DNA from: Sulfitobacter indolifex
Lineage (GTDB): Bacteria > Pseudomonadota > Alphaproteobacteria > Rhodobacterales > Rhodobacteraceae
Direction of reading: 5' to 3'
Length of the DNA: 64,000 nt
Assembly (NCBI RefSeq): GCF_022788655.1
Contig: NZ_CP084952.1
Span: 74,501 to 138,500, forward strand
A program made the position numbers and the translations under genes. Positions 1 to 12,717 of this stretch are shown here, piece by piece (position 1 is the first letter of the stretch; each line of letters starts with the position of its first letter). Under the pieces are notes generated by a model, which made no database searches, was not told the DNA's origin, and saw only the letters and a program-made list of their open reading frames with translations.

Positions 1-223
1 GCGGGAGGTGGCCGGACAGATCACGGCGTTCGTCTCGGAGGTGAGCGGCATTCGCCACGCGATGGAGCGGCACAGCCGCGCGCTCGAAGAGGCAGCCCTG
101 ACGCTGAAAGAGGCGACAGCGGGGACAGGAGAGCAGCGGATGCTGGGGCAGGAGATCCAGGCGATCTCCCACGATATCGCTTGGATCAAGGCGCAGCTCT
201 CCCAAGACGCCTTCGCGCCATAG
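1..223 (+). CDS. C-terminal part of an unknown coiled-coil protein (5' end outside window)
   Basis: The reading frame is open from the first base and ends at TAG 221-223. The visible 73 or so residues are rich in Glu, Ala and Arg with a heptad-like pattern, as in a C-terminal coiled coil. A GTG at 8 lies in frame but has no clear ribosome binding site, and the frame stays open upstream, so this is most likely the tail of a longer protein. No family is recognised. Confidence 0.5.
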   Translation, partial: REVAGQITAFVSEVSGIRHAMERHSRALEEAALTLKEATAGTGEQRMLGQEIQAISHDIAWIKAQLSQDAFAP

Positions 224-225
224 AC

Positions 226-492
226 ATGATCTGCGCGCTGCGGGGCGCGGCACGGTCTGTCTTTGCGCCGCGCGGCATCACCATAGGCATGGACCATGAG
301 AGGGGCTTTAACGTGGCCGGGCCGGAGTGGGGGATCGTCCTTGAGCGAAGCGGAGAGATCACTGGGGGAGGCAAACTGTCTCAAGAAAGCTATGAGCAAT
401 TTTTACACGCGGTCTGCGACCGGCTGCAAATCTCACACGTCGCACTGCAGCCCCGGGAAGAGAACGACCTCGCGTTCTCGCCCAGCTTATGA
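226..492 (+). CDS. Small hypothetical protein
   Basis: The frame starts at ATG 226, two bases after the stop of the preceding gene, and ends in TGA at 492, giving about 88 residues. The middle part (MDHERGFNVAGPEWG onward) has a balanced, protein-like composition with aromatic and acidic residues, whereas the first 20 residues are poorer. A later start at ATG 289 is possible. There is no strong Shine-Dalgarno sequence. No family is recognised. The close spacing to the upstream gene suggests one transcription unit. Confidence 0.4.
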   Translation: MICALRGAARSVFAPRGITIGMDHERGFNVAGPEWGIVLERSGEITGGGKLSQESYEQFLHAVCDRLQISHVALQPREENDLAFSPSL

Positions 493-733
493 GCGCCAAG
501 TGATCTTTATGCTAAAAGCTGCGGAGGGTTGGGGGCGGCGCATGATGGGTCATCACAGGCGCAAACCTTGATGGTCCGGTTCGGAAGCCTCGGTTCCGCG
601 AGAGAGGGGGGCGATGTTTGTCCGGCTCTTTGACGCTGGGTGCGCAAGAGATTTGATCCAAGTTTTGCCTCGATCATTAATTTGATCTGCGAGAAACGTC
701 ATATGAGGAAAAAACTCCAATGGCCGAAGTATT

Positions 734-1153
734 CTATGAAGAGGAAGGGGTCCAAATCCGGCCGCGCCATCCTGGAATCCCGTTTAGCATGTCGAATGCT
801 TCGTCACTCGACACGAGCGCCATGCCCATCTCGAGTGCGGTCACTCCGATCATTCGGTCGAACGGGTCTGGATGGTCCCACTCCATAGATCCCGCAAGCA
901 TGGCCATCCGTGCCGTATAGGGCGCGATCTTAAACCCATTCGTTACACAGATACGATCAAGGTGCGGAGCGTATGGTTCCATTTCTGGCCACCGCCCCTT
1001 CCTGACCTTCATCGTCATTTCGTGGAGGGAGCACGGCGGGACGTAAACCGCCGGTACATCCTCCAGCACGCGTCGAATTTCAGGCGTGATCCGACGAGAA
1101 CCGATCAGCCACCATGCAAGGATTTGGGTGTCGATAACGATCTCATTACTCAC
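734..1153 (-). CDS. vapC: PIN-domain ribonuclease toxin, VapC-like
   Basis: The protein of about 139 residues has the PIN-domain pattern: an N-terminal VIDTQILAWWL with the first acidic residue (Asp8), an SLHEMTMKV segment with Glu near 44, DPFDRMIGVTALE near 100, and LVSSDEAF near 118. These acidic residues normally bind metal for RNA cleavage. The GTG start at 1153 overlaps the antitoxin stop as GTGA, the usual coupling of such pairs; an in-frame GTG at 1162 is an alternative. It is expected to be a toxin neutralised by the upstream Phd-type protein. The RNA target cannot be told from the sequence. Confidence 0.88.
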   Translation of the reverse strand: MSNEIVIDTQILAWWLIGSRRITPEIRRVLEDVPAVYVPPCSLHEMTMKVRKGRWPEMEPYAPHLDRICVTNGFKIAPYTARMAMLAGSMEWDHPDPFDRMIGVTALEMGMALVSSDEAFDMLNGIPGWRGRIWTPSSS

Positions 1154-1380
1154 TCGCCCCACTCCGCGAGTTCGGCTGCGCTCATAGGCTCCATGAAGTC
1201 GGGTACGCTATCTTCGGGCACTAAACCCGCCAGTGGCCCAAACCGCAGCTGCGATGACGTTACTGGGACCAAACGCGCGGCTGGCACTCCACCGCGCGCA
1301 ATCACGACATCTTCACCCGCATCCACGGCGGCAAGAAGCTCAGAAAGCTTTGACTTCGCCTCGGCTACATTCATCTGCAT
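1150..1380 (-). CDS. Phd/YefM-type antitoxin
   Basis: The 76-residue protein begins MQMNVAEAKSKLSELLAAVD, the standard N-terminal DNA-binding fold of the Phd/YefM family, followed by VVIARGGVPAARLVPV. The C-terminal 30 residues would wrap the PIN toxin. A Shine-Dalgarno AGGTGAG lies just before ATG 1380. It is the first gene of a two-gene toxin-antitoxin operon. A perfect inverted repeat upstream suggests autorepression by the antitoxin or complex. Confidence 0.9.
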   Translation of the reverse strand: MQMNVAEAKSKLSELLAAVDAGEDVVIARGGVPAARLVPVTSSQLRFGPLAGLVPEDSVPDFMEPMSAAELAEWGE

Positions 1381-1396
1381 GGCTCACCTATATGCT

Positions 1397-1421
1397 ACAT
1401 GGTCTTGGACTTAGACCATGT
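1397..1421. promoter_or_regulatory. Inverted-repeat operator of the phd-vapC operon
   Basis: ACATGGTCT (1397-1405) and AGACCATGT (1413-1421) form a perfect 9-bp inverted repeat with a 7-base spacer, 17 bp upstream of the antitoxin start. The position and symmetry fit a toxin-antitoxin autoregulatory operator. Confidence 0.6.
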
Positions 1422-1614
1422 GAGGCGAATGTCAAGGCGCCGTGAGGGTCGAGACATCTTCTTCTTGGTGGAGGCGAGAAAACCCTTCTGCTTCTGCAGC
1501 CATAATGCGGCGGTAGGTTGTGATAACTTGCGTCACTACTTTACCTATATCTAACGACGAGCAAGGCGATCTGATGCCAGATGTCAGCAATGGGGCTTGC
1601 CTGGAGAGGTTGAT

Positions 1615-1644
1615 TTGAGGCATGCTGAGAGCATGACCTATAAT
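1615..1644 (+). promoter_or_regulatory. Sigma70-type promoter
   Basis: TTGAGG (1615-1620) and a perfect TATAAT (1639-1644) are separated by 18 bp. Transcription would begin near 1651 and run through the hairpin, the tRNA-like sequence and the downstream operon. The spacer contains GCATGCTGAGAGCATG, a short inverted repeat that could bind a regulator. Confidence 0.55.
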
Positions 1645-1668
1645 CCGCGCACCAACCACGTCGCTTGC

Positions 1669-1706
1669 CCCCGAATATCTAGCTGACTGGCTAGATATAA
1701 TCGGGG
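1669..1706 (+). other. Strong RNA hairpin in the leader, overlapping the tRNA-like 5' end
   Basis: Bases 1669-1683 pair with 1690-1706 over 15 bp with a two-A bulge (1699-1700) and a six-base loop (TGACTG). The 3' arm includes GGGG 1703-1706, and bases 1704-1706 are also the first bases of the acceptor stem proposed for the tRNA-like element. The two folds therefore compete, unlike in an ordinary tRNA leader. Confidence 0.55.
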
Positions 1707-1794
1707 AGTGCGCTGGTGCGGCGATGGGATTTATAGCCCCGTTGAGCAGTAGATGACTGTTAGAGTGAGAGTTCAATCCTCTCCACTCCTACCA
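1704..1794 (+). tRNA. Non-canonical class II tRNA-like sequence with encoded CCA; anticodon register ambiguous (UAU or UUA)
   Basis: The 3' half is convincing. The T arm is GAGAG/CTCTC around TTCAATC (1767-1783). The acceptor is GGGAGTG (1704-1710) with CACTCCT (1784-1790), one G-U pair. Discriminator A is at 1791 and CCA at 1792-1794. A long variable arm has a 6-bp stem (AGCAGT/ACTGTT). The 5' half is odd: the D arm is only CGC-TGGT-GCG (1711-1720). In the anticodon arm, GGG 1726-1728 pairs with C residues from 1737 onward. A 7-base loop (needing an A-C mismatch) gives anticodon UAU (1732-1734). An 8-base loop gives U1730 then UUA (1731-1733), which would read UAA. It could be a degenerate tRNA, an attachment-site remnant or a functional allo-tRNA/suppressor. 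Confidence 0.5.
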
Positions 1795-1816
1795 TTTTCT
1801 TACTCTCGAGGGGACT

Positions 1817-2713
1817 ATGACCCAAGCAATAGCATTGGCAGCCGTATAAGACGCGATCACTGCTAAGTACCCCGCCAGATCAGTCGAAATCACCGCACAG
1901 GTGCATCACATCCGCCCCGACGATGTCGCACATATCGACGTCTATGGATGTGATGACGCAATGACGCGACGAGCGATCAGAGCCGAGGCAGTGCAGTTGC
2001 TGCAACAGCTTGGTATCCATGTCGAGCTGGTCGGGGGGCATGACGTATATACGGTATCGGCAGATTACTCTGATCCCGCGTCCGTGCAAAACTACGCCAG
2101 CAGATTGCATCCCAGGCTGATCACCACGGCGGATTTTTTGAGGGCTTACAGCGAAGGTCGCGTGACCCGAGATGTCGCTATGGACGGCATCGGCGTAAAA
2201 AACTGCTGCGACTTTCGTCGTGCTTTGTTTGATTGCGGATTTGGTCATGCGACCATCCGAAGAGAGATCGAACTCGCGTCACTCACTGATCCGACGCCAG
2301 CGGGGTGGCTCTATGTCGATCTCGAAGGCCTCAATCCACGTATCATCGCCCACACAGAAGACAGGGATACGTATGTCGCCTACGCCCAGAGGCTCCGTGC
2401 TATTTTGCGAGCGTTGCATGGGGAGTTCCGCGCGGGTCCTTCAGTGAGCATGCGGGGTATGAAATTCCAAATTAACACCGCAATCTTTTCGCGCGAGCAA
2501 AGGGCCGCAGCCCGTCCTGCGTTAGCTGTTCGCCTTGCTGACGCCGGTTGCTCTGATGATGAGATTGCCAAGTTCCTCTGCCCTGAAACGATCTCCGAAT
2601 ATGCAATGCGCATTATGCGAGACGATCCCGCTCCGCCTGCGCGCATCCCGAAGCCTCGGAAGCGTCAGCCACCTCCCCAGCCTCCAATCTACGATTGTGA
2701 CAGCGATGACTGA
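1817..2713 (+). CDS. Unknown protein interrupted by an in-frame TAA at codon 11
   Basis: ATG 1817 follows a good Shine-Dalgarno (GAGGGG, 1808-1813) 22 bases after the tRNA-like CCA end. Ten codons (MTQAIALAAV) run to TAA 1847-1849. The same frame then stays open and protein-like to 2713, continuing DAITAKYPARSVEITAQ. Read through, it would be about 298 residues; restart at GTG 1901, which lacks a ribosome site, would give 270. The last 30 residues are Pro-, Arg- and Asp-rich. No family is recognised. It heads a three-gene operon with overlapping genes. Either this is a nonsense mutation or UAA is read through, possibly by the upstream tRNA-like element. Confidence 0.6.
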
Positions 2714-2906
2714 CGAGTTGTTTTCCCCCGGCATCCCACACATCGAGGTGCGGAGTTGGGATTGTGGACATACTATCACGCGGAAGCTTGACGATGTCCC
2801 ATCTGGGATCACGCAGCACAATTTTGAACGTCGCTCGATCTGTCAGTGCGGCACTGGATGGCCTCAGGTGAGGCGGTACCCGCGAAAGTCGTCTACATGG
2901 ATGTGA
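2706..2906 (+). CDS. Small Cys/His protein, possible zinc binder
   Basis: ATG 2706 overlaps the end of the previous gene by 8 bases (ATGACTGA), a typical coupling. The 66-residue product contains WDCGHT near residue 20 and ICQCGTGWP near residue 47, a CxH...CxC spacing that could bind one zinc ion. It overlaps the start of the next gene by about 50 bases in another frame. No family is recognised, and small size makes it less certain than its neighbours. Confidence 0.5.
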   Translation: MTDELFSPGIPHIEVRSWDCGHTITRKLDDVPSGITQHNFERRSICQCGTGWPQVRRYPRKSSTWM

Positions 2907-3538
2907 TTGCGCCATCATCCCCGGCATTCGAGTCCGGCCGCTTGGAGTTTGGGTGTCATGTGCGCATCGAGACGTTGATCTATGCGATGACGGCGGCAGG
3001 CATTGAGGGTGCCGAGCGCCTAAGAAACAAACCCGCCGGCTGGATCGGCATCTTTGAGGCTCTCGGCGCGCATCTAGCACAGGACCCAAGCAACTACTCG
3101 ATCAGCGATGCCAAAGAGGAGTTCGGCATGCTGTATCTCAAGGTGATCGACAAGAGAACAGGGCGCGCAGATACGGATCTCTTGCGGTGGTGCGCTGAGC
3201 AGAGCGCCGTGCGCTGCATGGTCTACGGCTCCCCGGGACGGATCCGCTCGGAGCTTGGATGGGTCATGACGCTCTCAGACGCAGCATTCGATATTTTGGT
3301 AGATACGCCCAACGAGCAGTTCTTGCGCTTGGTTTACCCTGTGTGGCGTATGGATAAGGATGATGTGATCGAGATGATTGTGGCCCGTTTCGCCACGCCG
3401 GCCGCGGCTTATGTCTGGTATTACTCTGAGTCCCTGTCCGGTTGTGGGGGCCGCACTGCGATGCAGCTCGTGCAGGAGGGTAAGGCGCAGCAGGTCTTGG
3501 ACTACCTCGACGCCGTCGATGCGGGAGTCTTCGAATAA
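2858..3538 (+). CDS. Unknown protein with a C-terminal MbcA/ParS-like (DUF2384-type) segment
   Basis: The frame opens at GTG 2846, and ATG 2858 is the likely start, giving about 226 residues. The first 180 residues have no recognised family. The C-terminal 45 residues (ESLSGCGGRTAMQLVQEG then a helix and DAVDAGVFE) match the pattern of the toxin-binding domain of Xre/MbcA/ParS antitoxins, where a small helical bundle ends in a conserved Gly-x-Phe/Tyr. This is a motif-level similarity only. Lacking an evident RES toxin beside it, the protein could be an antitoxin or regulator within the tRNA-like operon. A terminator follows at once. Confidence 0.7.
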   Translation: MASGEAVPAKVVYMDVIAPSSPAFESGRLEFGCHVRIETLIYAMTAAGIEGAERLRNKPAGWIGIFEALGAHLAQDPSNYSISDAKEEFGMLYLKVIDKRTGRADTDLLRWCAEQSAVRCMVYGSPGRIRSELGWVMTLSDAAFDILVDTPNEQFLRLVYPVWRMDKDDVIEMIVARFATPAAAYVWYYSESLSGCGGRTAMQLVQEGKAQQVLDYLDAVDAGVFE

Positions 3539-3544
3539 TAGGGC

Positions 3545-3569
3545 AGGGCCGCCCGCGGGTGGCCCTTTG
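3545..3569 (+). terminator. Rho-independent terminator of the 1817-3538 operon
   Basis: AGGGCC (3545-3550) pairs with GGCCCT (3561-3566) and is followed by a short T run. The inner bases GCCCGCGGGT can extend the stem. It lies 7 bases after the operon's last stop codon. Confidence 0.6.
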
Positions 3570-3702
3570 ATCCAGCCTCCACTTGGTTATCTCGCTCGCG
3601 CGTGGACCTTACTAGAGGCGGGGATACGCTGTCGCAGCTGGTCTGTCGTCTCGTACACTACCATAGCATATTGCGTTTTACGCATCACGCAACGTTGAGG
3701 TG

Positions 3703-3723
3703 CGCTCCCCTGATAAGGGAGCG
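3703..3723 (+). other. 5' leader hairpin before the MNT gene
   Basis: CGCTCCC (3703-3709) and GGGAGCG (3717-3723) form a perfect 7-bp stem with loop CTGATAA, only about 20 bases before ATG 3744. A second inverted repeat, TTGCG/CGCAA, lies at 3671-3692. Either could be an operator or leader structure for the downstream gene. Confidence 0.4.
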
Positions 3724-3743
3724 GTTTGGGAAGGATCAAAAAT

Positions 3744-4058
3744 ATGTGCAAGACGACTGATATCATTCGCAGCAGATCTGATAAGCGCCATAACGCGGCG
3801 CTGTCGGCGTGGTATGCGATCAAGTCTGATCTCGAAGCCGTAGGTCTGAAGGCGAAACTTTTCGGCTCTCTGGCGAATGGTGACTTCAGGGGTCATTCCG
3901 ATATCGATCTGGTGATTAGATTGGGAGACAGCGGGATGTCCAGGTCTGCTGTTGATCGTATCGTCAGCAAGGCATCACCTGATATCCTAGTGGACTTGCT
4001 TTTCGAAGAAGACCTAACGCCGTCAGACTTGGAAACCTTCGTTGGCACCTGGGCGTAG
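3744..4058 (+). CDS. MNT-type minimal nucleotidyltransferase
   Basis: Start ATG 3744 is preceded by GGAAGGA; an upstream in-frame TTG at 3726 is less likely. The 104-residue protein has the nucleotidyltransferase signature FGSLANGDFRGHSDID near residues 40-55 (GS-x(n)-D-x-D), with a further acidic strand ILVDLLFEED near 85-95. Minimal nucleotidyltransferases are often antitoxins that AMPylate a HEPN toxin. Here the neighbour downstream is a frameshifted membrane protein, and the nearest HEPN protein is the convergent Abi_2 gene, so pairing is uncertain. It ends soon after the third acidic residue, shorter than many relatives. Confidence 0.8.
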   Translation: MCKTTDIIRSRSDKRHNAALSAWYAIKSDLEAVGLKAKLFGSLANGDFRGHSDIDLVIRLGDSGMSRSAVDRIVSKASPDILVDLLFEEDLTPSDLETFVGTWA

Positions 4059-4167
4059 TGTGTTACGCTCCTGCTGGACCCAAATGGGTCTGCACCACGA
4101 TCGCGCCTCTGAAGAGCGGATTCCGGCGTTGGCAAAGTCGCCAGCAATCAAGCAATGCACGCCGTGC

Positions 4168-4409
4168 ATGCCGTCAGTTGACCCGCAAATTGCGGCCAGC
4201 CTTGATGTCCTGCGCACCGACCTGGAGAATTCTGAGAAAAGACACTGGAAACGCTGTTCGTTATCTCTGGCATCGCAGGTAGCGTTGGCGCGTTTCACGT
4301 TGCTTGGCGTGCTCACAACAAATCCTACAAGGCTACTGGGCCCGATGAAGCGCTCGTGAGGCGCTTCGTTGAGGCCGCCCCACTAACTCTGATGAAAGAC
4401 ATCACATGA
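4168..4409 (+). pseudogene. Small membrane protein with a -1 frameshift
   Basis: From ATG 4168 the frame encodes MPSVDPQIAASLDVLRTDLE and reaches GAG AAA AGA near 4234. A protein-like continuation lies in the -1 frame: KKTLETLFVISGIAGSVGA, a membrane helix, then HVAWRAHNKSYK and a tail ending in TGA 4407-4409. Joining at the AAAA run gives about 80 residues. A terminator-like hairpin follows, which supports a real transcription unit. This may be a simple indel, a sequencing error or programmed slippage; no family is recognised. Confidence 0.4.
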
Positions 4410-4447
4410 TGCGTATCGCACCATCTCAGATCTGCCCAAAGGCGTCT

Positions 4448-4468
4448 AAAATCCGGGAGGCGGGTTTT
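4448..4468 (+). terminator. Terminator-like hairpin
   Basis: AAAATCCG (4448-4455) pairs with CGGGTTTT (4461-4468) over 8 bp with loop GGAGG. It ends in TTTT and lies 40 bases after the frameshifted small gene; on the other strand it could also end the Abi transcript. Confidence 0.45.
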
Positions 4469-4596
4469 ATGTTTAGTGATTTTTTGTGAGGCGTGAATCT
4501 CGCAAAGGTTGTGCGTCGGGCCCCCTGAAAGTAGGCATGAAAGAGGCTTCAAAGGGCGTTCTCATGCCGCGCACAAGCTCCCCGGTCGCGCTGGCG

Positions 4597-5664
4597 TCAG
4601 TTCCAGATGGCTTCGTGCTCCCAGCCTTCCGGGAACCCGGCGGTCTGGGGGCGGATCTCGTATGTGAGGTTCTGGGCCAAGATCATGTCGCGGAGACGAA
4701 TGTGCCACTCCGTGCGCGGATAGTACTGCCGCAGCATGAAGATCATGATGACGATTGCGCTGTAGATTTTCTTCGTCGGCGCATCGTCCCCCATCCTGGG
4801 CTGGCGGAGATGGTCTAACTGCCCGAAAGTTGTCTTAGGTGGGACACCTGGGCTGTTGACGAGGGGCTTGTTCCACGTCCGGGCGTGATGTGCGCAGCTG
4901 TTGCGGACGTCGTTGAGCGCTGTGATCCATGAAGCGAAGGTCTTCATGGGGAGGTCTGAGTGGATACGCGCCGCGATTGCCATTTTGTTCTTGTCGGACA
5001 GGTGGGCGATGATGTGGGTCAAATTGCCCCAGGTCCATGTCCCGGCCTCAATCCAGATCGGTGGAGGACCGAAGTACTTCAGTGCGAAATGCTTCGCGAA
5101 GTCCTCTTTCGAGCTTCTGAAGTGTTGATCTAGGCCAGCTATGAAGAGCTCAAGAGGCGTGCTGCCGTCTTCGCCCTTTTCGCTGAAGCGATCTTTGTAT
5201 GAGCGTCTGTCGCGATGTGCATAGGGGCCCCGCTCTCCAAGAACCTCAATCATCGCGGTTCTGACTGCGATCTCAATGCGCTCGATCGCGTCCAGAAGTT
5301 CGATACGGAGGGCTTTATCGAAGAGGTAGAAGTCGATTGCATGATCGAACGTCGTACCCTTTTTGAACTTGTCGCACCGAACCTTCTTCTCTGCCTCACC
5401 CTCCGGCGTCGGGATCAGACAGAGGTCACGGTACGGATACGCAAAAGCGCTGAGCCTATAGTATCCGATGCGGTGCAAGGAACGCTCTGCATGGCCCCTA
5501 TCAGGGATTTCCATACCTCTCATCAACATGATGTCGATGCAATCACTGATCGACTTGTGCTGCTTTAGGTACTTCAATGTTAATACGGCAATGTCCAGAA
5601 AGTAGAAGACCGGGCTGTAACGAGGCGACTGAGGCCAGGTCAGGGAGCACCGGTCATAAGGCAA
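4597..5664 (-). CDS. Abi_2 family HEPN protein (AbiD/AbiF-like abortive infection)
   Basis: The core matches the Abi_2 family: a helical start KYLKQHKSISDCIDIMLMRG, the signature RIGYYRLSAFAYPYRD near residues 65-80, DHAIDFYLFDKALR near 107-120, and a HEPN motif RNSCAHH at 254-260 (R-x4-H) expected to form the RNase site. Abi_2/AbiF proteins are known as abortive-infection toxins, some paired with a non-coding RNA, and are related to the HEPN nucleases of Cas13. ATG 5664 is used here, but the first 26 residues look non-coding and TTG 5577 is a plausible real start. It faces the MNT gene convergently. Confidence 0.85.
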   Translation of the reverse strand: MPYDRCSLTWPQSPRYSPVFYFLDIAVLTLKYLKQHKSISDCIDIMLMRGMEIPDRGHAERSLHRIGYYRLSAFAYPYRDLCLIPTPEGEAEKKVRCDKFKKGTTFDHAIDFYLFDKALRIELLDAIERIEIAVRTAMIEVLGERGPYAHRDRRSYKDRFSEKGEDGSTPLELFIAGLDQHFRSSKEDFAKHFALKYFGPPPIWIEAGTWTWGNLTHIIAHLSDKNKMAIAARIHSDLPMKTFASWITALNDVRNSCAHHARTWNKPLVNSPGVPPKTTFGQLDHLRQPRMGDDAPTKKIYSAIVIMIFMLRQYYPRTEWHIRLRDMILAQNLTYEIRPQTAGFPEGWEHEAIWN

Positions 5665-5678
5665 TAAAGGACAATAGT

Positions 5679-5752
5679 GTCGGAGGCGACAATGTCAACA
5701 TTGGAAGTAGGGCGGGTAACGCGGGCGGTAACCTATCCCACCAACCCCCGCC
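5679..5752 (-). ncRNA. Candidate structured RNA upstream of the Abi_2 gene
   Basis: Three hairpins lie in 74 bases: GTCG-GAGG-CGAC (5679-5690), CAATG-TCAA-CATTG (5690-5703) and GGCGGG (5711-5716) with CCCGCC (5747-5752). The last encloses two copies of a GCGGG/GCGG-TAAC unit. An AT-rich, promoter-like stretch follows at 5753-5800. Because Abi_2/AbiF toxins can pair with RNA antitoxins, this block is the natural place to look for one. That assignment is inference. Confidence 0.35.
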
Positions 5753-5762
5753 TATAATACAT

Positions 5763-5800
5763 TCAATATAAATAATATGGATCAATATAAATAATATGGA
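5763..5800. repeat. 19-bp tandem direct repeat
   Basis: TCAATATAAATAATATGGA occurs twice back to back (5763-5781 and 5782-5800) without a mismatch. It lies just upstream of the candidate RNA and the Abi_2 gene, where it could be promoter or operator sequence. Confidence 0.85.
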
Positions 5801-6256
5801 TGCCCTGTTTCTCGGTGCGGACAAGCGTCGGACTTGAGATGTTACACAGCTTAACACCACGGTTGTCATTCATAGATACCAACACCGCGTCTTTCGACCG
5901 CTGCCGCCAGCCCACGGGCCAGCTTTGATACCCTCCCGATCAACGGTCCTCCTCTCCCCGGCCAGTATAACTCCGGACTTTCCTACCCCCGTATAGACCA
6001 CGACCGGCTCAGTCGGGTGAGCTTCGCAAACTAGCTTACCCACCCATTGGGCCGTGTCGTAATATGCGAAAAACTTATTCTCAGGTCCGGGTGTTTTTAA
6101 GCCCTGCATGGATGCTGCTTGTGAGCCGGAGCCGCACGCGGCCGTATTTGACGAGGTTTTCCACAGTCCTTTTACGCATCCAGGCCTCAGCAGCTTTCTT
6201 TAAGGTTTCCGCACTTGGTACCTTGCGGAAGTGCAGCAAGACTTGGAGAAAGCCAA
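5801..6256. other. No confident gene
   Basis: This stretch holds only weak frames. The best is a minus-strand frame over 5870-6109 with an acceptable composition (AQWVGKLVCEAHPTEP) but no ribosome site or recognised family. Confidence 0.4.
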
Positions 6257-6511
6257 ATGAGTACGACTACGGATACAAGCTTGGAAGCGGCCCAGGCGGT
6301 GCTTAACTATCTGAGGGTAACGTTCCCGAAGTGCGTTCTCACGAACCCTAAGACTTTTGATCGCTTTATGCTGGAGGCGATGGCCTTCATGGAGAACGGC
6401 CCCCTGGAGGTGCGCAAAATTCGTGCGATGGTGGACTTCGTGTGCGACGCAGGGTTGGACCCTTATGACGATGGCTATGAGGACTGCTATGAAGAGTACG
6501 TTTGTCCCTGA
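6257..6511 (+). CDS. Small hypothetical protein
   Basis: ATG 6257 is preceded by GGAGA (near 6245). The 84-residue product starts MSTTTDTSLEAAQAVLNYLR and ends in a very acidic, aromatic tail DPYDDGYEDCYEEYVCP. The body is predicted helical with KIRAMVDFVCDAGLD. No family is recognised. It is followed by a structured, untranslated region that may be a separate RNA. Confidence 0.6.
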   Translation: MSTTTDTSLEAAQAVLNYLRVTFPKCVLTNPKTFDRFMLEAMAFMENGPLEVRKIRAMVDFVCDAGLDPYDDGYEDCYEEYVCP

Positions 6512-6533
6512 TTTCTTTCCTGCCCATGCACAG

Positions 6534-6641
6534 CTAGCTCTCCCGTCTCGGCCAGCCTCGGGCTGGCGGTGCTGTCTGGCCCAAGCGATAGGCTTTACCG
6601 ACGACCCCTCCAGGGGCAGGTTCCGACCTGGAGAGGGCTAG
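6534..6641 (+). ncRNA. Candidate small structured RNA
   Basis: Bases 6534-6542 pair with 6633-6641 over 9 bp (one G-U), closing a 108-base unit. Inside are GCCAGCC-TCG-GGCTGGC (6551-6567) and CAGGT-TCCG-ACCTG (6617-6630), the latter with a UNCG-type tetraloop. No coding frame covers it. The strand is not certain, since inverted repeats fold on both strands. Confidence 0.3.
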
Positions 6642-6818
6642 TTACAGGACGTTGCTGCATTTGAATTCTTGCATTTGGGGTGTTGTTGCCCAGGATTGGG
6701 GCAAGATTTTTAAACCAAGGAGAATCTTGTGAGAAGTAATCTTTCAGGAGAACGGATTGCTATTCAGTTGGAATTATAACGGCTCATCAGTACTCATTTT
6801 AAGAAAGCTTTCAGTCCA

Positions 6819-6963
6819 ATGATTAGAACTGGTCGCCGCTATGCCTTGATTTCCCCTTGCCGTAACGAAGCAGAGTTCATCAAGCGAACTTTAGACAGTG
6901 TGATTGCGCAGTCTGAGCATCCCGCGCAGTGGGTTCATGGTGGACGACGGCTCCATTGATGTC
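6819..6963 (+). pseudogene. N-terminal fragment of a GT2 family glycosyltransferase
   Basis: ATG 6819 encodes MIRTGRRYALISPCRNEAEF then IKRTLDSVIAQSEHPAQWV, the classic start of a GT-A glycosyltransferase. The nucleotide-sugar motif VDDGSID follows only in another frame (near 6938), so a one-base frameshift is present. Nothing recognisable remains after about 6963. The rest of the gene was evidently lost next to the protease gene. Confidence 0.7.
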
Positions 6964-7038
6964 GGACAGTCGGCTCTAACGGTTAGGATCGTTGAAGCCT
7001 CTTTGACTACGGCTGTAACAGGTGCCGCGGGCGGGTGC

Positions 7039-8187
7039 TCAGACGTACCAGATGCCGTCATCGACGGCTGCGGCGACTTTGATGATATTTTCCTGCGAGT
7101 CTGAGAAGTGCTGCAGCATCACAGATCGGCTTAAGCCGTTCTCTTGTTGATCCTGCCAAAAATCAAATCCGCTTTGATCCGGGTCGCGGTCAAGAATGTT
7201 GTTGTAAAGCAGGGTTAGGAAGGCGTCGTTATCGACATTTGCCGTGCCACCATATTTGGTGTCGAACTCTTCGGAGCGAATGAAGTGCCCTGCCATTTCC
7301 TCGTGGGTGACGGTGCCCGTATCGAAATGCCGGATCCAGAACCCCAATCCTTCAGGATCAGGAGCGCGATCAAAGGCAGCTTGATAGAGCCTGTAGGTGG
7401 TGCCGGCATTTCCATCCGTGTCAAAGGCGAGAGACCCGTTATCAAACTGCAGCCGTTCGACGTTTTGCAGCTCCTGCGTGAGGCCTGTGGCAGCAGCGTA
7501 AACTTCGATATTAAGCGCATTGTCATCTGTCACGCTGTAGAGGCTCAAAGCGCCTTCAAAGCGGACGGTGTCAAGGCCGTCCTGGCCATTGATGACATCT
7601 GCGGCATTTGTGGCCACCAACAGATCGTCTTGCGCGGTGCCCCACAGCCTGGCGCCATACATAAGCTGCGCGCCTTCGATATCATGATGTGTCAGATCGG
7701 GCTGGGATTTGAGAGTGGGATACATGATGGTGTCGGGATCATCGGTATGCAGCAGGCCCATGGTGTGGCCGATCTCATGCAGGGCCGTGGTGTAGAGGTT
7801 CACGGCCCCGCCGGGGGCTGTTTTGCTCGTGGACCAGTTTTCTGCCAGATCAAACCGGATTTCTGCCTCGGTGACGCTGTAGAGCGTCGAGCTTGTTTTG
7901 CTCAAGTAGGACTGCGCCGTGCCGATCACGCCGTAAGCCCCGTCAATACTGTCCCAGCCGAGACGCAGATCGCTTTGAGCGCCGTCGGCGACCTCGACAA
8001 AATCGATGTTTATGACGTTTTCCCACGCCTGAAACGCATCGCGGATCAGCGCTTGGTAGGTCGGGTTTGATATGTCACCCGCAAAAGCAGAGCCGGCGCC
8101 CGGGGAGGCGAAACTCCAGGTGACGGTGCCACCCGAATGCCCCTGTTCTCCAAAGCCCCATTTATAGTCAGCCAAGGTATAGCTCAT
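7039..8187 (-). CDS. Secreted serralysin-like zinc metalloprotease with DUF4214 tail
   Basis: From ATG 8187 (AAGAGG upstream) the protein has about 382 residues. The matrixin/serralysin motif HEIGHTMGLLH is at 137-147 with the Met-turn at about 155 (IMYP). A short region with RTX-like character (VINGQDGLDTVRFEG) leads into a C-terminal DUF4214 repeat: YRLYQAAFDRAPDPEGLGFW and a second copy NNILDRDPDQSGFDFW. There is no N-terminal signal, as expected for type I secretion substrates. It probably degrades external protein or processes surface adhesins. A longer upstream start is open but poor. Confidence 0.85.
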   Translation of the reverse strand: MSYTLADYKWGFGEQGHSGGTVTWSFASPGAGSAFAGDISNPTYQALIRDAFQAWENVINIDFVEVADGAQSDLRLGWDSIDGAYGVIGTAQSYLSKTSSTLYSVTEAEIRFDLAENWSTSKTAPGGAVNLYTTALHEIGHTMGLLHTDDPDTIMYPTLKSQPDLTHHDIEGAQLMYGARLWGTAQDDLLVATNAADVINGQDGLDTVRFEGALSLYSVTDDNALNIEVYAAATGLTQELQNVERLQFDNGSLAFDTDGNAGTTYRLYQAAFDRAPDPEGLGFWIRHFDTGTVTHEEMAGHFIRSEEFDTKYGGTANVDNDAFLTLLYNNILDRDPDQSGFDFWQDQQENGLSRSVMLQHFSDSQENIIKVAAAVDDGIWYV

Positions 8188-8621
8188 GTCGTGAGGGCCT
8201 CTTTTTATGCGTTGCAACGGATCGTTCTGGTGGGGGAGAACCGGATGCCTTGAAAGAACCCGGGAGGTGCGCAAAGCAGCATGAGCCGCTTTGTCTTTTA
8301 TTGGGGGTGCTCAGTACCCCGGCACAGGTGGTGGGACAAGGGAGCGACGCTGGTTTAGAGACTCAGACGCGGGTGTTGGCGCAATGTCGCCGAAGGGGGC
8401 CTTGGGGGTTCTGAAGGCAAAGCGGTGTCCTCATGCAGGTCATCTACCAGTACGTTGGAAATTTGTTGTGTCATCGCAGGGGCACGGGTGTGTTTGTTTT
8501 GTGCGCCTTGAACCGCGCATCCATGAACGGGGCTGGAAGTACGGCTGTGCGGGAATTATGATTGGTTTACCTGTCCTCAGGCTGTCTTTCATTGCTAACT
8601 TGCGCGTCCAAAGGATTTTTC
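8188..8621. other. Intergenic region between protease and manC
   Basis: This divergent spacer has no convincing gene. AAAGGA just before 8622 is the ribosome site of the next gene. No clear operator was found. Confidence 0.4.
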
Positions 8622-10070
8622 ATGACCCATATTGTGCACCCAATCCTGTTGGCCGGAGGGTCTGGCACCCGGCTTTGGCCGCTGTCGCGCAAAAGCTATC
8701 CTAAGCAGTTTGCCAAATTGATGGGGGAGCGCAGCTTGTTTCAGGCGTCGGCCAAACGGCTGGCTGGGGAGGGGTTTGCGGCCCCGGTGATCCTGACTGG
8801 CGCGGATTATCGATTTGTGGTGACAGAACAATTGGCCGCAGTGGAGATCGCGCCTGCTGGCATTCTTATTGAGCCTGAGGGGCGCAACACCGCGCCTGCG
8901 ATCCTTGCTGCCGCCTTGGAGCTTGCCGCCCGCGCGCCCGAAGCGCTGATGCTGGTGGCGCCCTCGGATCACGTGATACCTGAGGCGGAAAGCTTCCGCG
9001 CGGCGGTTCAGGCGGCGACCATCGCAGCCCTCGAAGGCCAGCTGGTGACCTTCGGCATCCGCCCCGACCGGGCAGAGACCGGCTATGGCTGGCTGGAGAT
9101 GAGCCAGGCGCCCTCGGCTGATTTTGCCTCTGAGCCACAGCCGCTTAAGGGATTTGTGGAAAAGCCCGACAGCGCCACCGCGGAGGCGCTGCTCAACGGG
9201 GGGCAGCATTTGTGGAATGCGGGAATTTTCCTCTTCTCGGTCAAGACGATCATTGCGGCCTTTGAAGCGCATGCCCCTGAGATGTTGGTTTTGGTGCGCG
9301 CCTCTGTGGACCAGGCTGAGCAAGATCTTGGCTTTACCCGGCTGGCGCCCGGGCCTTGGGGCCAGGTGGAGGATATCTCCATCGACTATGCCGTGATGGA
9401 GAAAGCTGAAAACCTCAGCGTCGTCCCCTATGGCGGGGCGTGGTCGGATTTGGGCGGCTGGGATGCGGTCTGGCGCGAGACCGGTCCGGATGAGGCGGGC
9501 GTGGTGGTCTCGGCTTCCGCCACGGCCATCGATTGTCATGACACAATGCTGCGCGCCGAAGACCCACGACAGCAATTGGTTGGCATCGGATTGCGCGACA
9601 TCATTGCGGTGGCCATGCCCGACGCGGTGCTGGTGGCGCATAAAGACCGTGCGCAGGATGTCAAAAAAGCGGTCGCGGCTCTTAAGGCCAAGGGGGCCTC
9701 TCAAGCGGACACGCTCCCGAAGGATTTTCGCCCCTGGGGCTGGTTTGAATGCCTCGTGTCGGGTTCCCGCTTTCAAGTAAAGCGCATTACGGTTCATCCC
9801 GGGGCTGCCCTCAGCCTGCAGAGCCATCATCACCGCTCAGAGCATTGGATCGTCGTCGAAGGCACGGCCAAGGTGACGATCGGAGAAGAGGTGAAGCTCG
9901 TGAGTGAGAACCAATCAGTTTATATTCCTTTGGGCGCCACCCACCGGATGGAGAACCCCGGCAAGGTGCCCATGGTGCTCATTGAAGTGCAAACTGGCAG
10001 CTATCTCGGCGAGGATGACATCATCCGCTATGAAGATGTCTATGCCCGGGGGCAGGGCGCCAAGGGGTGA
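8622..10070 (+). CDS. manC: Mannose-1-phosphate guanylyltransferase / mannose-6-phosphate isomerase
   Basis: The 482-residue protein starts MTHIVHPILLAGGSGTRLWP with the pyrophosphorylase signature GGSGTRLWPLSRKSYPKQF. It contains the PSDHVIP and FVEKPD motifs and the GGAWSDLGGWD segment of the transferase. The C-terminal 130 residues form the cupin isomerase domain (RPWGWFECL, then HHHRSEHWIVVEGTAKVTIG). Together these make GDP-mannose from fructose-6-phosphate with a phosphomannomutase. It would feed polysaccharide synthesis. The start was placed at ATG 8622, since upstream codons do not match the family. Confidence 0.95.
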   Translation: MTHIVHPILLAGGSGTRLWPLSRKSYPKQFAKLMGERSLFQASAKRLAGEGFAAPVILTGADYRFVVTEQLAAVEIAPAGILIEPEGRNTAPAILAAALELAARAPEALMLVAPSDHVIPEAESFRAAVQAATIAALEGQLVTFGIRPDRAETGYGWLEMSQAPSADFASEPQPLKGFVEKPDSATAEALLNGGQHLWNAGIFLFSVKTIIAAFEAHAPEMLVLVRASVDQAEQDLGFTRLAPGPWGQVEDISIDYAVMEKAENLSVVPYGGAWSDLGGWDAVWRETGPDEAGVVVSASATAIDCHDTMLRAEDPRQQLVGIGLRDIIAVAMPDAVLVAHKDRAQDVKKAVAALKAKGASQADTLPKDFRPWGWFECLVSGSRFQVKRITVHPGAALSLQSHHHRSEHWIVVEGTAKVTIGEEVKLVSENQSVYIPLGATHRMENPGKVPMVLIEVQTGSYLGEDDIIRYEDVYARGQGAKG

Positions 10071-10289
10071 CAGAAGGAAGAGGGCTGAGGGCTTACCTTA
10101 TAGCCAGAAGGAAGGGAGCTCTCGCTGCCTAGGAAAGCGTGTTGAGTATTAGGTCCTCGGCCAATTTTCGCACAACGCACCAAATGCGACGCGGCGGACC
10201 GGAAACGACCTTTGCGGAATTCCTGTTCAGCGCAATACTTGTGACAGGATCGACATGGTGTCGACCCTTGCAAACGCGAGTAACGAGAG

Positions 10290-10361
10290 ATGGCTACTGC
10301 ACCTAAACCCCAGCCTAAGAAAAGCCCGCCTAAGCCTGGCGACAAGCCACAGCAGAAGTAA
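10290..10361 (+). CDS. Very small Pro/Lys-rich peptide
   Basis: ATG 10290 to TAA 10361 encodes 23 residues, starting MATAPKPQPKKSPPKPG. The composition is strongly biased and basic. A Rho-independent terminator begins 22 bases after the stop, which suggests a dedicated short transcript. No clear Shine-Dalgarno is seen beyond GAGAG. No family is recognised. Confidence 0.4.
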   Translation: MATAPKPQPKKSPPKPGDKPQQK

Positions 10362-10383
10362 GCTCCATTTTCGAAACTGCATC

Positions 10384-10414
10384 TGCCGCCTCCGAATTGG
10401 GGGCGGCAATTTTG
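10384..10414 (+). terminator. Rho-independent terminator
   Basis: TGCCGCC (10384-10390) pairs with GGCGGCA (10402-10408) and is followed by ATTTTG. It follows the small Pro/Lys-rich frame. Confidence 0.65.
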
Positions 10415-10651
10415 CTAAGGGCCAACTGTACCGTTTGACCAATGTGGGTAGGTACCCGTCTACAACGAAGAAGTCTTTGCCAAAGCCTTCGAGGTTATGG
10501 GTTTTGAGGGCGCGGCACTATCTGTTTGGCGCCTCAGATCCCCGTCGCGTAGATGCAGCGACCTTGGGTCACTGACGGTTGAAAACTCAATCCCGGCCGT
10601 TTCTCCGAGGTTAGCAGCCTTATTCTACGGGCTCTTCAAGGGCATTGTGAC

Positions 10652-11404
10652 TCACACCCTCAACGCAGGCAGCCCGACGCCGGTTGCATCAAACCCGCCA
10701 TCGGAGGCCACAACCTGACCTGTAACATAGCTGGCCCGCTCGCCGGCTAGAAAGCAAATGACTTCTGCGATTTCCCGCTCCGTTCCATATCGGTTAAGCG
10801 GTATCGCGTCATGGTAGGCGGCACGTATTTCAGGAGAGTGTACGGCCAGCGCGAGTTTTGTGTCCACTGGGCCGGGACAAACGCAGTTTGCACGGATGCC
10901 GACCTCTCCCAGTTCCGCGGCTTGCTGCTTGGTGAGATGGATGACGGCAGCTTTGGAGGTACCATAGGCAACGCGCAGCGTTGAGGCACGCAAGCCTGAG
11001 ATCGAGGCAATGTTGATGATGGCGCCGCCGCGTACCGACAAGAGGGGCAGGCAGGCCTGCGACATCAGAAAAACGCCATCAAGATTTGTGTCCATAACAC
11101 GCCGCCAGCGGGCGAAATCGGTTTCAGCCAGCGGTCCAAAGTCCGCGACGCCCGCGTTGTTTACCAGAATGTCGAGGCGTCCATATGTTTGTTCGACCTC
11201 TGCAATAGATTGCGCGACGTGCTGGGGGATCGACACGTCACAGGTCAGGGACAAAGCGCCGGGCAGGGTGGCCGCGGCAGTTGCAAGCTCATCCGCATCG
11301 CGGTCAAGCATCACGACGCGTCTGCCCTCGGCGTGCAAAAGAGATGCAGTCGCGAGACCGATGCCGCGTGCGGCACCTGTGATGAGAGCGACAGTATCGT
11401 TCAT
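10652..11404 (-). CDS. Short-chain dehydrogenase/reductase
   Basis: A classical SDR of 250 residues: TGAARGIG cofactor loop near residue 9, NNAG near 86, catalytic Ser in IASISG and YGTSK near 150, and a C-terminal VTGQVVASDGGF. It would oxidise or reduce a hydroxyl or keto group with NAD(P). ATG 11404 overlaps the dctM stop as ATGA, so it is the last gene of the TRAP operon. It probably acts on the imported compound; the substrate is not visible. Confidence 0.92.
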   Translation of the reverse strand: MNDTVALITGAARGIGLATASLLHAEGRRVVMLDRDADELATAAATLPGALSLTCDVSIPQHVAQSIAEVEQTYGRLDILVNNAGVADFGPLAETDFARWRRVMDTNLDGVFLMSQACLPLLSVRGGAIINIASISGLRASTLRVAYGTSKAAVIHLTKQQAAELGEVGIRANCVCPGPVDTKLALAVHSPEIRAAYHDAIPLNRYGTEREIAEVICFLAGERASYVTGQVVASDGGFDATGVGLPALRV

Positions 11405-12717
11405 TTCAGGACCTCAGGCAGAAATAGGGACAGGGCGGGGACCGCCGCCACAATGGCAAGGCCGATGACGCTGATGGCGAGAAACGGCAATGCGGCACGC
11501 GCAATGCGCTCCAAGGGCTGTCGCGTGATGTTTGCAGCGACGTAAAGATTAATCCCGACGGGCGGCGTGATGAGACCAATGGCAAGGTTTACCATCACCA
11601 GCACGCCGAACCATACCGGGTCCCATCCCAATTCACGCACCACCGGCATGAAAATTGGAAGAGAGATGAACATCACCGTGACGGGGTCCATGAACATGCC
11701 TGCGATCAGTAGGATTAGCATGATGACCATCAAGATCACCCCGCCATTGTCCGACAGGCCGAGCAACTGGCCGGAGTATTGTCCGACGAGGTCTTCGACG
11801 GTTACGACCCAGCCAAATAGGCTTGCATAGGCGACCACCAGCATGACTACGGCGGAGGATGAAGCGGCTTCGGTTAGGGCGTCATAGAGGGCGCGGATTG
11901 TCAGCGTGCGGTAGGCAAAGGCGCCGACAGCTATGGCATAGACTGTGGCGACAAGGGCCGCTTCGGTTGGGGTGAAAATACCGGAATAGATTCCGCCGAG
12001 GATGACCACAGGCGTCATGAGGCCCCAGAAGGACTCGCGAAAGCTTCGCCCCAGATCGCGCCAGTAACCGTTGCTGGGGGGTGCGGGCGAAAGCTTGTCC
12101 AGCCCCTCCCGGTTGGTCGACTTGATGAAGGGTAGAACGACCAGCATCAGCATCCCCATAAAAAGACCGGGTATGATTGCTGCGATAAAAAGAGCGGAGA
12201 TCGAGGTCTCGGCGATAACGCCATAGATCACAAGGCCGATGGAGGGCGGGATCACAATGGAGAAGGCAGCCCCCGTGCAGACCAGAGCGGCAGCCGCGGC
12301 GCGGGGGTAGCCATCTTCTTCCATCCCTTTGATGATCATAGGGCCAATAGCTGCCACAGAGGCAGGGCCAGAGCCTGAAACAGCCCCCCAAAAGAGGCAG
12401 ACCACCGTGCCAACGACGCCCATGCCACCGGGAAGGTTGCCGATCAGGATGCGGAAAAAACGGATCATGCGCTCGGCAATTCCCAATGTTCCCATCAGCG
12501 TCCCTGCGAGAATAAAAAAGGGGATGGCCAGCAAAGCGTATTTGGCGATGCCAGTGGCGATCAGGTCTCCTGCAAGCTCAAAGCCGAAGCCGATTTGCCA
12601 CATCGCATACATGGCCGATAGGCCGAGCGCGAAGGCCACCGGCACGCGCAGTGCCATCAGCACAAAGAAGGCAACGATCATTTGGGTGCCGGCACCCATA
12701 TTCAGGATGTCAGACAC
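11401..12717 (-). CDS. dctM: TRAP transporter large permease subunit
   Basis: About 438 residues with a dozen membrane segments typical of DctM (for example VPVAFALGLSAMYAMWQIGF at the N-terminus and LITPPVGINLYVAANITRQ near the C-terminus). It is the main channel of a Na+-driven tripartite uptake system. GTG 12717 is chosen because it overlaps the dctQ stop, and the frame upstream is hydrophilic and unlike the family; ATG 12699 is an alternative. Confidence 0.95.
   Translation of the reverse strand: MSDILNMGAGTQMIVAFFVLMALRVPVAFALGLSAMYAMWQIGFGFELAGDLIATGIAKYALLAIPFFILAGTLMGTLGIAERMIRFFRILIGNLPGGMGVVGTVVCLFWGAVSGSGPASVAAIGPMIIKGMEEDGYPRAAAAALVCTGAAFSIVIPPSIGLVIYGVIAETSISALFIAAIIPGLFMGMLMLVVLPFIKSTNREGLDKLSPAPPSNGYWRDLGRSFRESFWGLMTPVVILGGIYSGIFTPTEAALVATVYAIAVGAFAYRTLTIRALYDALTEAASSSAVVMLVVAYASLFGWVVTVEDLVGQYSGQLLGLSDNGGVILMVIMLILLIAGMFMDPVTVMFISLPIFMPVVRELGWDPVWFGVLVMVNLAIGLITPPVGINLYVAANITRQPLERIARAALPFLAISVIGLAIVAAVPALSLFLPEVLK

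Follow-up and report, generated by a model that had tools for sequence, protein, structure and literature searches.

The window analysed here is a stretch of 64,000 nucleotides (nt) from Sulfitobacter indolifex (contig NZ_CP084952.1, positions 74,501 to 138,500 of the forward strand), which lies on contig C2 of a 4.5 Mb genome and carries near its beginning a class II transfer RNA (tRNA)-like RNA with an encoded CCA end. A short open reading frame (ORF) containing an AUA codon lies just upstream of this RNA, a hairpin joins the end of that leader ORF to the acceptor strand of the tRNA, and a gene of what we term family A, interrupted by an in-frame TAA, follows downstream. An earlier sequence-only reading of this DNA had recognized the tRNA-like sequence and the interrupted gene, and had passed over the leader ORF at 1633-1686 as well as the hairpin, which spans 1667-1709 and shares bases with the acceptor strand. 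We are nearly certain that a probable promoter, the leader ORF, the hairpin, the UAU tRNA and, often, an accessory gene make up a real and recurrent module. Its best reading, which we hold to be probable on balance, is a ribosome-controlled attenuator, whose anatomy can be seen directly and whose switching we infer from sequence and predicted energies.

The AUA leader and the tRNA-like RNA

In the window the leader ORF ends in Arg(CGA)-Ile(AUA)-Ser-Ser-stop, inside the hairpin that pairs with the 5' acceptor strand of the tRNA. When the first 13 copies of the element were placed side by side, all 13 were seen to have a short ORF with AUA among its last codons, ending 10 to 25 nt before the tRNA, with CGA-AUA in 11 of them. 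Such a leader was also present in 14 of 18 readable copies found later with a model of the tRNA part only, and in 41 of 55 copies on named genome contigs found with a tRNA-only DNA pattern, the two genome collections overlapping so that these three sets share genomes; G049 was not readable, having no matching 3' end. A non-redundant set of 51 bacterial copies was then obtained by thinning 84 copies at 90% ungapped identity, with two Nostoc loci left out. Requiring that AUA fall within the last four codons, we found the leader ORF in 40 of the 51; when the upstream DNA was shuffled, 300 rounds gave 1.47 on average and never more than 5. In all 40, AUA is the second or third codon from the stop, the stop comes within two codons after AUA and lies 10-28 nt from the tRNA; CGA precedes AUA in 29, and the ORFs are 8-18 codons long, with one of 26. 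AUA, which makes up 0.46% of the codons in 28 long ORFs of the window, is a rare codon normally read by lysidine-modified tRNA-Ile2, and since the host has TilS, AUA should normally be read by that tRNA here as well.

The sequence-only reading had also claimed a sigma70 promoter, without coordinates. That claim could not be upheld, as the TATAAT at 1639-1644 falls inside the conserved leader ORF and the nearest TTGATT (1610-1615) is 23 nt ahead of it. The probable promoter that we propose (Table 1) has a weak -10 element in the window, and its TTG (1597-1599) recurs at -36/-35 of the leader ATG in 30 of the 39 leader ORF copies with enough upstream DNA. The leader ATG would thereby stand at the expected transcription start, so that the messenger RNA is probably leaderless.

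The tRNA-like sequence itself was confirmed by ARAGORN, which called a tRNA-Ile(tat) at 1702-1794, and by covariation beyond chance. In 60 aligned copies (52 distinct), selected by hand from the loci found and aligned with fitting to the structure, standard pairs fill 94.8% of the pair cells and both sides have changed in 200 cells; the covariation score is 0.539, while shuffles give 0.165 and slid structures do not exceed 0.107. A cloverleaf with a 7-bp acceptor, a 5-bp T stem, a T loop and CCA was found across the copies, a few of which do not have the CCA end (S. dubius has CCG, and L245 also deviates); in the variable arm, one of the named pairs (columns 63-69) fails to pair in most cases. 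The covariation suggests that the tRNA fold is under strong selection across genera, and on this ground we reject a decayed tRNA as a description of the family. Nucleotides 49 and 65 pair in 50 of the 51 copies, while nucleotides 8 and 65 could pair in only 8, which makes the acceptor/T branch 7/5 and excludes the 8/4 geometry of allo-tRNAs. The anticodon reads UAU in 59 of the 60 aligned copies, part of which came from a search pattern requiring UUAUA, and the conserved register is UAU followed by A37. The UUA register proposed by the sequence-only reading is not conserved, S. dubius having C for one U. In a single copy, L095 (G733), the loop reads UAA rather than UAU and the leader still has AUA. 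Rfam gave no match to tRNA or tRNA-Sec above the gathering threshold in window positions 1-8000 or in four relatives: no tRNA family appeared in the former at E<=5, and the sole one in the latter was tRNA-Sec (RF01852), which matched two of the four at 32.9 bits, below the 47-bit cut-off.

Folding predictions tie the leader to the tRNA. The segment from 45 nt upstream to acceptor position 7 folds better than its shuffles, with a mean z score of -2.67 in the 40 leader ORF copies (24 of them below -2) and of -0.90 in the 11 others. When acceptor bases 1-3 were limited to upstream pairing, for which they mostly used the leader, the predicted ensemble beat the acceptor-formed state in 40 of 41 copies. 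For 39 of 40 copies this preference for the leader-paired state was stronger than shuffled leaders showed on average, with a median of -9.9 versus -3.8 kcal/mol, and 58 of 600 shuffles reached values as low. The AUA and stop codons of the window copy are found in the loop of the leader hairpin and on its 5' side, an anatomy from which a ribosome at this point would be expected to free the acceptor. A start codon with a ribosome site was found within 60 nt in 22 of the 41 copies, and in 17 of these (16 of 21 without G033, whose core was taken one base short) the ribosome site is predicted to be more exposed once the acceptor has formed. In L220 and THAF33, both from Ruegeria, the match between acceptor 3' strand and ribosome site extends to 10 bp.

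Table 1. Position of the module and of the ORFs behind it in the window
Feature	Position	Strand	Basis
Probable promoter: -35 TTGCCT (1597-1602), 17 nt, poor -10 GCATGC (1620-1625), 7 nt before leader ATG	1597..1625	+	TTG recurrence
Leader ORF, MTYNPRTNHVACPRISS-stop, probably on leaderless mRNA	1633..1686	+	same ORF type in 40/51 non-redundant copies
Leader hairpin, 3' strand extending into acceptor 5' strand (1704-1706, 1708-1709)	1667..1709	+	fold prediction, energy tests
AUA codon of leader ORF, third before stop, CGA ahead	1675..1677	+	AUA position in 40/40
Class II tRNA-like RNA, 7/5 acceptor/T branch, encoded CCA	1704..1794	+	ARAGORN; covariation; 7/5 test
Anticodon UAU (reads AUA), A37	1732..1734	+	ARAGORN and alignment; positions 31/39 unpaired in window copy
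Variable arm	1746..1760	+	alignment, pair counts
T arm, 7-nt T loop	1767..1783	+	alignment, pair counts
Family A gene, TAA at codon 11 (1847-1849)	1817..2713	+	homologues carry Gln at codon 11
Small second ORF	2706..2906	+	Cys-rich, zinc-ribbon-like pattern (by eye); related DNA in L010

Distribution and downstream genes

When 62 genomes of the genus were searched at the DNA level, G033 and G012 proved to have the tRNA-like part without a family A gene. A covariance model was made from eight copies, using their tRNA part; its scores in 394 genomes of the family showed a gap between 57.8 and 37.2 bits, and the 25 loci checked below it comprised 14 tRNA-Leu, 7 other tRNAs and 4 places with no tRNA at the centre; the gap is no clean border, as copies found later have scores as low as 36.8 bits. 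With a cut-off of E<=1e-8, the RNA turned up in 10 of the 62 genus genomes searched, in 16 of 390 from the order and in 2 of 385 from the class, the window's own genome being included in each count. The genome-contig pattern for the tRNA alone matched 64 places, 55 of them with a perfect acceptor. Copies are present on a plasmid of the laboratory strain Cereibacter sphaeroides 2.4.1 (L285) and in Xanthomonas, where 19 records match and the two plasmids that were read have the same leader and tRNA (..CCT CGA ATA CCG GCG TGA); the Xanthomonas copies were left out of all counts. Some copies are located on plasmids or near transposase genes. By eye, the tRNA-like copy of L038 (G012), near 5256-5347, stands between Tn7-type transposition-like genes and a retron-type reverse transcriptase.

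Viral relatives were also seen: at least 118 viral contigs (L100-L219) carry a class II UAU tRNA with a CAGATNA-type variable loop, both features being imposed by the search pattern, which matched at least 120 loci including one that was unparsed and one without a perfect acceptor. Among the matches listed, 112 of 118 have another tRNA within 1.5 kb (versus 5 of 55 bacterial copies), 99 are called tRNA-Ile(tat) and only 5 have the AUA leader ORF. BLAST of one tRNA copy against phage records gave no match. The overall spread suggests that a phage-type tRNA may have been taken up by plasmids and islands and then placed under leader control.

Behind the tRNA, an ORF of at least 60 amino acids was found in 50 of 68 loci examined, which were not made non-redundant, and 35 of these ORFs fall into six BLASTP groups: family B (12 loci), AAA ATPases (9), family A (6), a small Ruegeria group (4) and two groups of 2, one of which (L233/L254) is probably in the wrong frame. 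Family B has conserved Cys pairs in the three of its 12 loci that were aligned; the two AAA ATPases tested both matched Pfam AAA, and one is weakly similar to IetA of PADLOC. At L266 (6230-6325) the copy is followed 36 nt downstream by a gene for a KptA/Tpt1 RNA 2'-phosphotransferase.

For family A the named relatives found were all Sulfitobacter. The protein P0001, together with the window piece, gave no match worth naming in Pfam, PADLOC or PHROGs, and a scan of the family A protein against the genome contigs and viral contigs returned no relative; its structure prediction had a mean pLDDT of 45.5 and was unusable. The proteins P0001-P0027 have a conserved N-terminal domain, about 97 residues long, followed by C-terminal modules that differ, as if these had been swapped.

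Proposed ribosome-controlled attenuation and its alternatives

In the attenuator that we favour, the order of parts is a promoter, a probably leaderless ORF ending in (CGA)-AUA-x-(x)-stop, an acceptor-capturing hairpin, a class II UAU tRNA and often an accessory gene, and the ribosome on the leader would gauge how efficiently AUA is decoded. Were AUA read fast, the ribosome would depart, the leader would keep hold of the first acceptor bases and the tRNA would neither fold nor mature. Were AUA read slowly, with tRNA-Ile2 cut, unmodified or depleted, the stalled ribosome would mask the 5' side of the hairpin and the acceptor could form, whereupon the UAU tRNA would fold and be released, easing the shortage. 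In copies whose gene has a matching ribosome site, the acceptor 3' strand would then no longer pair with that site and the gene would be turned on. The suggestion of a tRNA-integrity sensor or recoding switch, made in the sequence-only reading, thus keeps its idea of a tRNA-based switch and loses its codon, the one linked to the tRNA being AUA in the leader peptide and not UAA in the gene.

Several observations weigh against this model. The strict leader ORF test is failed by 11 of the 51 copies: L227 and L250 have ..CAA CGA ATA.. in a slightly longer ORF, L273 has an ATG ORF with ATA farther from the stop, and G017, L243, L264 and L268 have ATA-CRC-TGA with no near ATG; by eye, a longer reading frame seems to come immediately before G714, G721 and G724, and an apparent other tRNA sequence before L267 (Granulicella). 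As all aligned members but one share the same anticodon, co-variation between leader codon and anticodon cannot be observed, and the single deviant (G733) has kept its leader AUA. Read from the alignment, positions 31 and 39 are unpaired in most Sulfitobacter copies including that of the window and paired in several Ruegeria copies, a 5-bp anticodon stem with a 7-nt loop being present in several of the latter and absent from most of the former; the Sulfitobacter form would speak against ordinary decoding.

The energetic argument has its own weak points. G033 slightly favours the acceptor-formed state (+1.4 kcal/mol), and the energies leave out tRNA tertiary structure. Pairing probability of the acceptor is 0.844 versus 0.797 in shuffles, with only 9 of 40 copies exceeding 95% of their shuffles, a test that shows little because G-rich acceptors pair with almost anything; in this test, that of the z scores and that of ribosome-site exposure the G033 core was one base short and the G012 3' end three bases long. 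As regards the gene, our criterion identified no start codon equipped with a ribosome site within 60 nt in 19 of the 41 copies, among them the window and L011, which do have a family A gene, and control of a gene therefore cannot be universal. An acceptor paired with its own ribosome-site region gives -12.0 kcal/mol and with permuted regions -11.1 (115 of 5000), and L010, S. dubius, G045 and L260 match their own region worse than those of other copies. Anti-Shine-Dalgarno pairing is thus only weakly supported as a general rule.

The main alternative, itself rather unlikely in our estimate, is that only the tRNA is under control. The AUA leader would hold back the maturation of a phage-type tRNA that reads AUA, giving a self-limiting supply, and the downstream genes would be passengers reached by read-through transcription. 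The 19 copies just mentioned fit this view, as do the many families from which the first ORF behind the tRNA comes and the viral relatives, which among the matches listed stand mostly in tRNA clusters and are mostly called tRNA-Ile(tat). It accounts poorly for the recurrence of six BLASTP groups among the downstream ORFs, and for matches between acceptor and ribosome site that in some copies reach 7-10 bp.

We think it improbable that the leader ORF acts as a minigene on which ribosomes stall or lose peptidyl-tRNA at CGA-AUA, so that tRNA-Ile2 is titrated, the tRNA-like RNA being a decoy or antidote. The lambda bar minigenes offer a parallel for such stalling and drop-off, and the frequent CGA before AUA, the stop that always comes within two codons and the Sulfitobacter forms that look poor for decoding all agree with it, yet it leaves unexplained both the acceptor-capturing leader and the compensatory changes in the acceptor and T stems.

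The remaining alternatives concern the stop codon in the family A gene. The gene is laid out as the sequence-only reading had described it, with an ATG at 1817, TAA at 1847-1849 and a frame that afterwards stays open to 2713. At codon 11, however, Gln is found in 14 of 14 homologous proteins that cover the site (27 were aligned, and the query P0001 from L011 is among the 14), and five loci keep the tRNA-like sequence together with a Gln codon at this position: L010 and L011, which are paralogues in the window genome, and L025, L028 and L029 from other Sulfitobacter. It follows that the UAA is private to the window copy and its duplicate. Judged from these homologues, it is an ordinary and incidental nonsense mutation that breaks the window gene, intact family A copies existing elsewhere. 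The sequence-only reading had looked for counter-evidence to homologues with a sense codon and no tRNA-like sequence; the sense codon was found, and the tRNA-like sequence beside it. Since the tRNA-like element is kept where the stop is absent, only the stop is incidental.

Plain decay, meaning a nonsense codon next to a relic tRNA or a DNA element such as a recombination site with no function as RNA, is very improbable: the broken window gene and the copies on plasmids or near transposase genes agree with it, whereas the covariation at the RNA level across genera and a leader frame kept at many lengths do not. Least credible of all is the proposal that the tRNA-like RNA reads the codon-11 UAA and makes expression of the gene tRNA-dependent, for although the TAA is real and the frame open behind it, the homologues carry Gln, also where the tRNA is kept, and the conserved anticodon is UAU.

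Returning to the attenuator, we can place it in a wider and more doubtful scheme, in which the module would be a mobile monitor of AUA decoding. A leaderless AUA-ending peptide would control the folding of a UAU tRNA in cis, and loss of tRNA-Ile2, for example through an anticodon nuclease during phage attack, might release a lysidine-independent replacement tRNA and also switch on a linked gene for repair or defence, encoding an AAA ATPase, KptA-type RNA repair or a zinc-ribbon protein.

Surroundings, known systems and significance

Positions 1-11709 of the window recur without a difference on the opposite strand of contig C3 in the same genome (19 kb of C3 were compared), and would represent either a large recent duplication or an assembly duplicate. 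On the minus strand at 734-1380, two small ORFs resemble by eye a VapBC-type toxin-antitoxin pair. An ORF at 2846-3538, the first part of which overlaps the end of the preceding small ORF, has at its end a possible Xre/MbcA/ParS toxin-binding domain just below the Pfam cut-off. Further on are a lone small nucleotidyltransferase of the MNT type (3744-4055) and an Abi_2/AbiD gene (4597-5664), which together suggest a defence-rich stretch; DNA related to the nucleotidyltransferase is also found in L011, and one is annotated beside the family A gene in L029.

Of the known RNAs, the module tRNA comes closest to allo-tRNA(UAU), and kinship with it is likely, the two being compared by description only. 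According to the allo-tRNA section of one review, allo-tRNA(UAU) outnumbers the other allo-tRNA groups in metagenomes of soil and sediment, has changes that destabilize its stems, overlaps with a transposon-related ORF and is unusable for translation in Escherichia coli, and a link to transposons or toxin-antitoxin systems has been proposed (PMC7609411). Class II structure and the UAU anticodon, which is common among allo-tRNAs, are shared, whereas that section names no leader ORF, AUA codon or leader hairpin (PMC7609411). The branch is 7/5 here versus 8/4 or 9/3 in allo-tRNAs, which argues against filing the module RNA as a typical one. The viral class II tRNA-Ile(tat) resembles it in the pattern-imposed anticodon and variable-arm motif and, by eye, in a similar small D loop, and differs in its various acceptors, in standing mostly in tRNA clusters and in its scarcity of AUA leaders among the matches listed. 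The branch of tRNA-Sec is 8/5; the module RNA has in common with it a long variable arm and the sub-threshold match in two of four relatives, and lacks both that branch and the UCA anticodon.

With ribosome-mediated attenuators the module shares a leader ORF with a sensing codon near its end, and the proposed mutually exclusive structures are here backed by predicted energies and not by the pairing-probability test. In the account of Sinorhizobium meliloti trpL, a leaderless leader ORF attenuator of another Alphaproteobacterium, a short ORF likewise stands at the first AUG of the RNA and the position of the ribosome selects between exclusive structures (PMC7298713). There, Trp codons sense Trp and a terminator is controlled; here the controlled RNA would be a tRNA that could, in principle, read the codon used for sensing. 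A response of gene control to the state of tRNA is also described for RtcR, where damaged tRNA governs RNA repair (PMC7790460), and one module copy precedes a KptA/Tpt1 gene; unlike that system, the module has its tRNA in cis, and a translated codon is proposed as its sensor. The same likeness and difference hold for the T-box riboswitch, another form of gene control that responds to tRNA state.

The new part would be a switched structure that is itself a tRNA matching the sensing codon. To the best of our knowledge, no leader-peptide attenuator has a tRNA as the switched structure, nor a leader codon paired with a tRNA on the same transcript that should read it, and no description of the leader/tRNA module was recognized in the non-subscription literature searched. 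If our reading is true, the module would be a tRNA gene regulated by its own codon and a sensor of tRNA-Ile2 damage carried on plasmids and islands, and it would offer a possible function for the allo-tRNA(UAU) group, which the allo-tRNA section of the review reports as unusable for translation in E. coli (PMC7609411).

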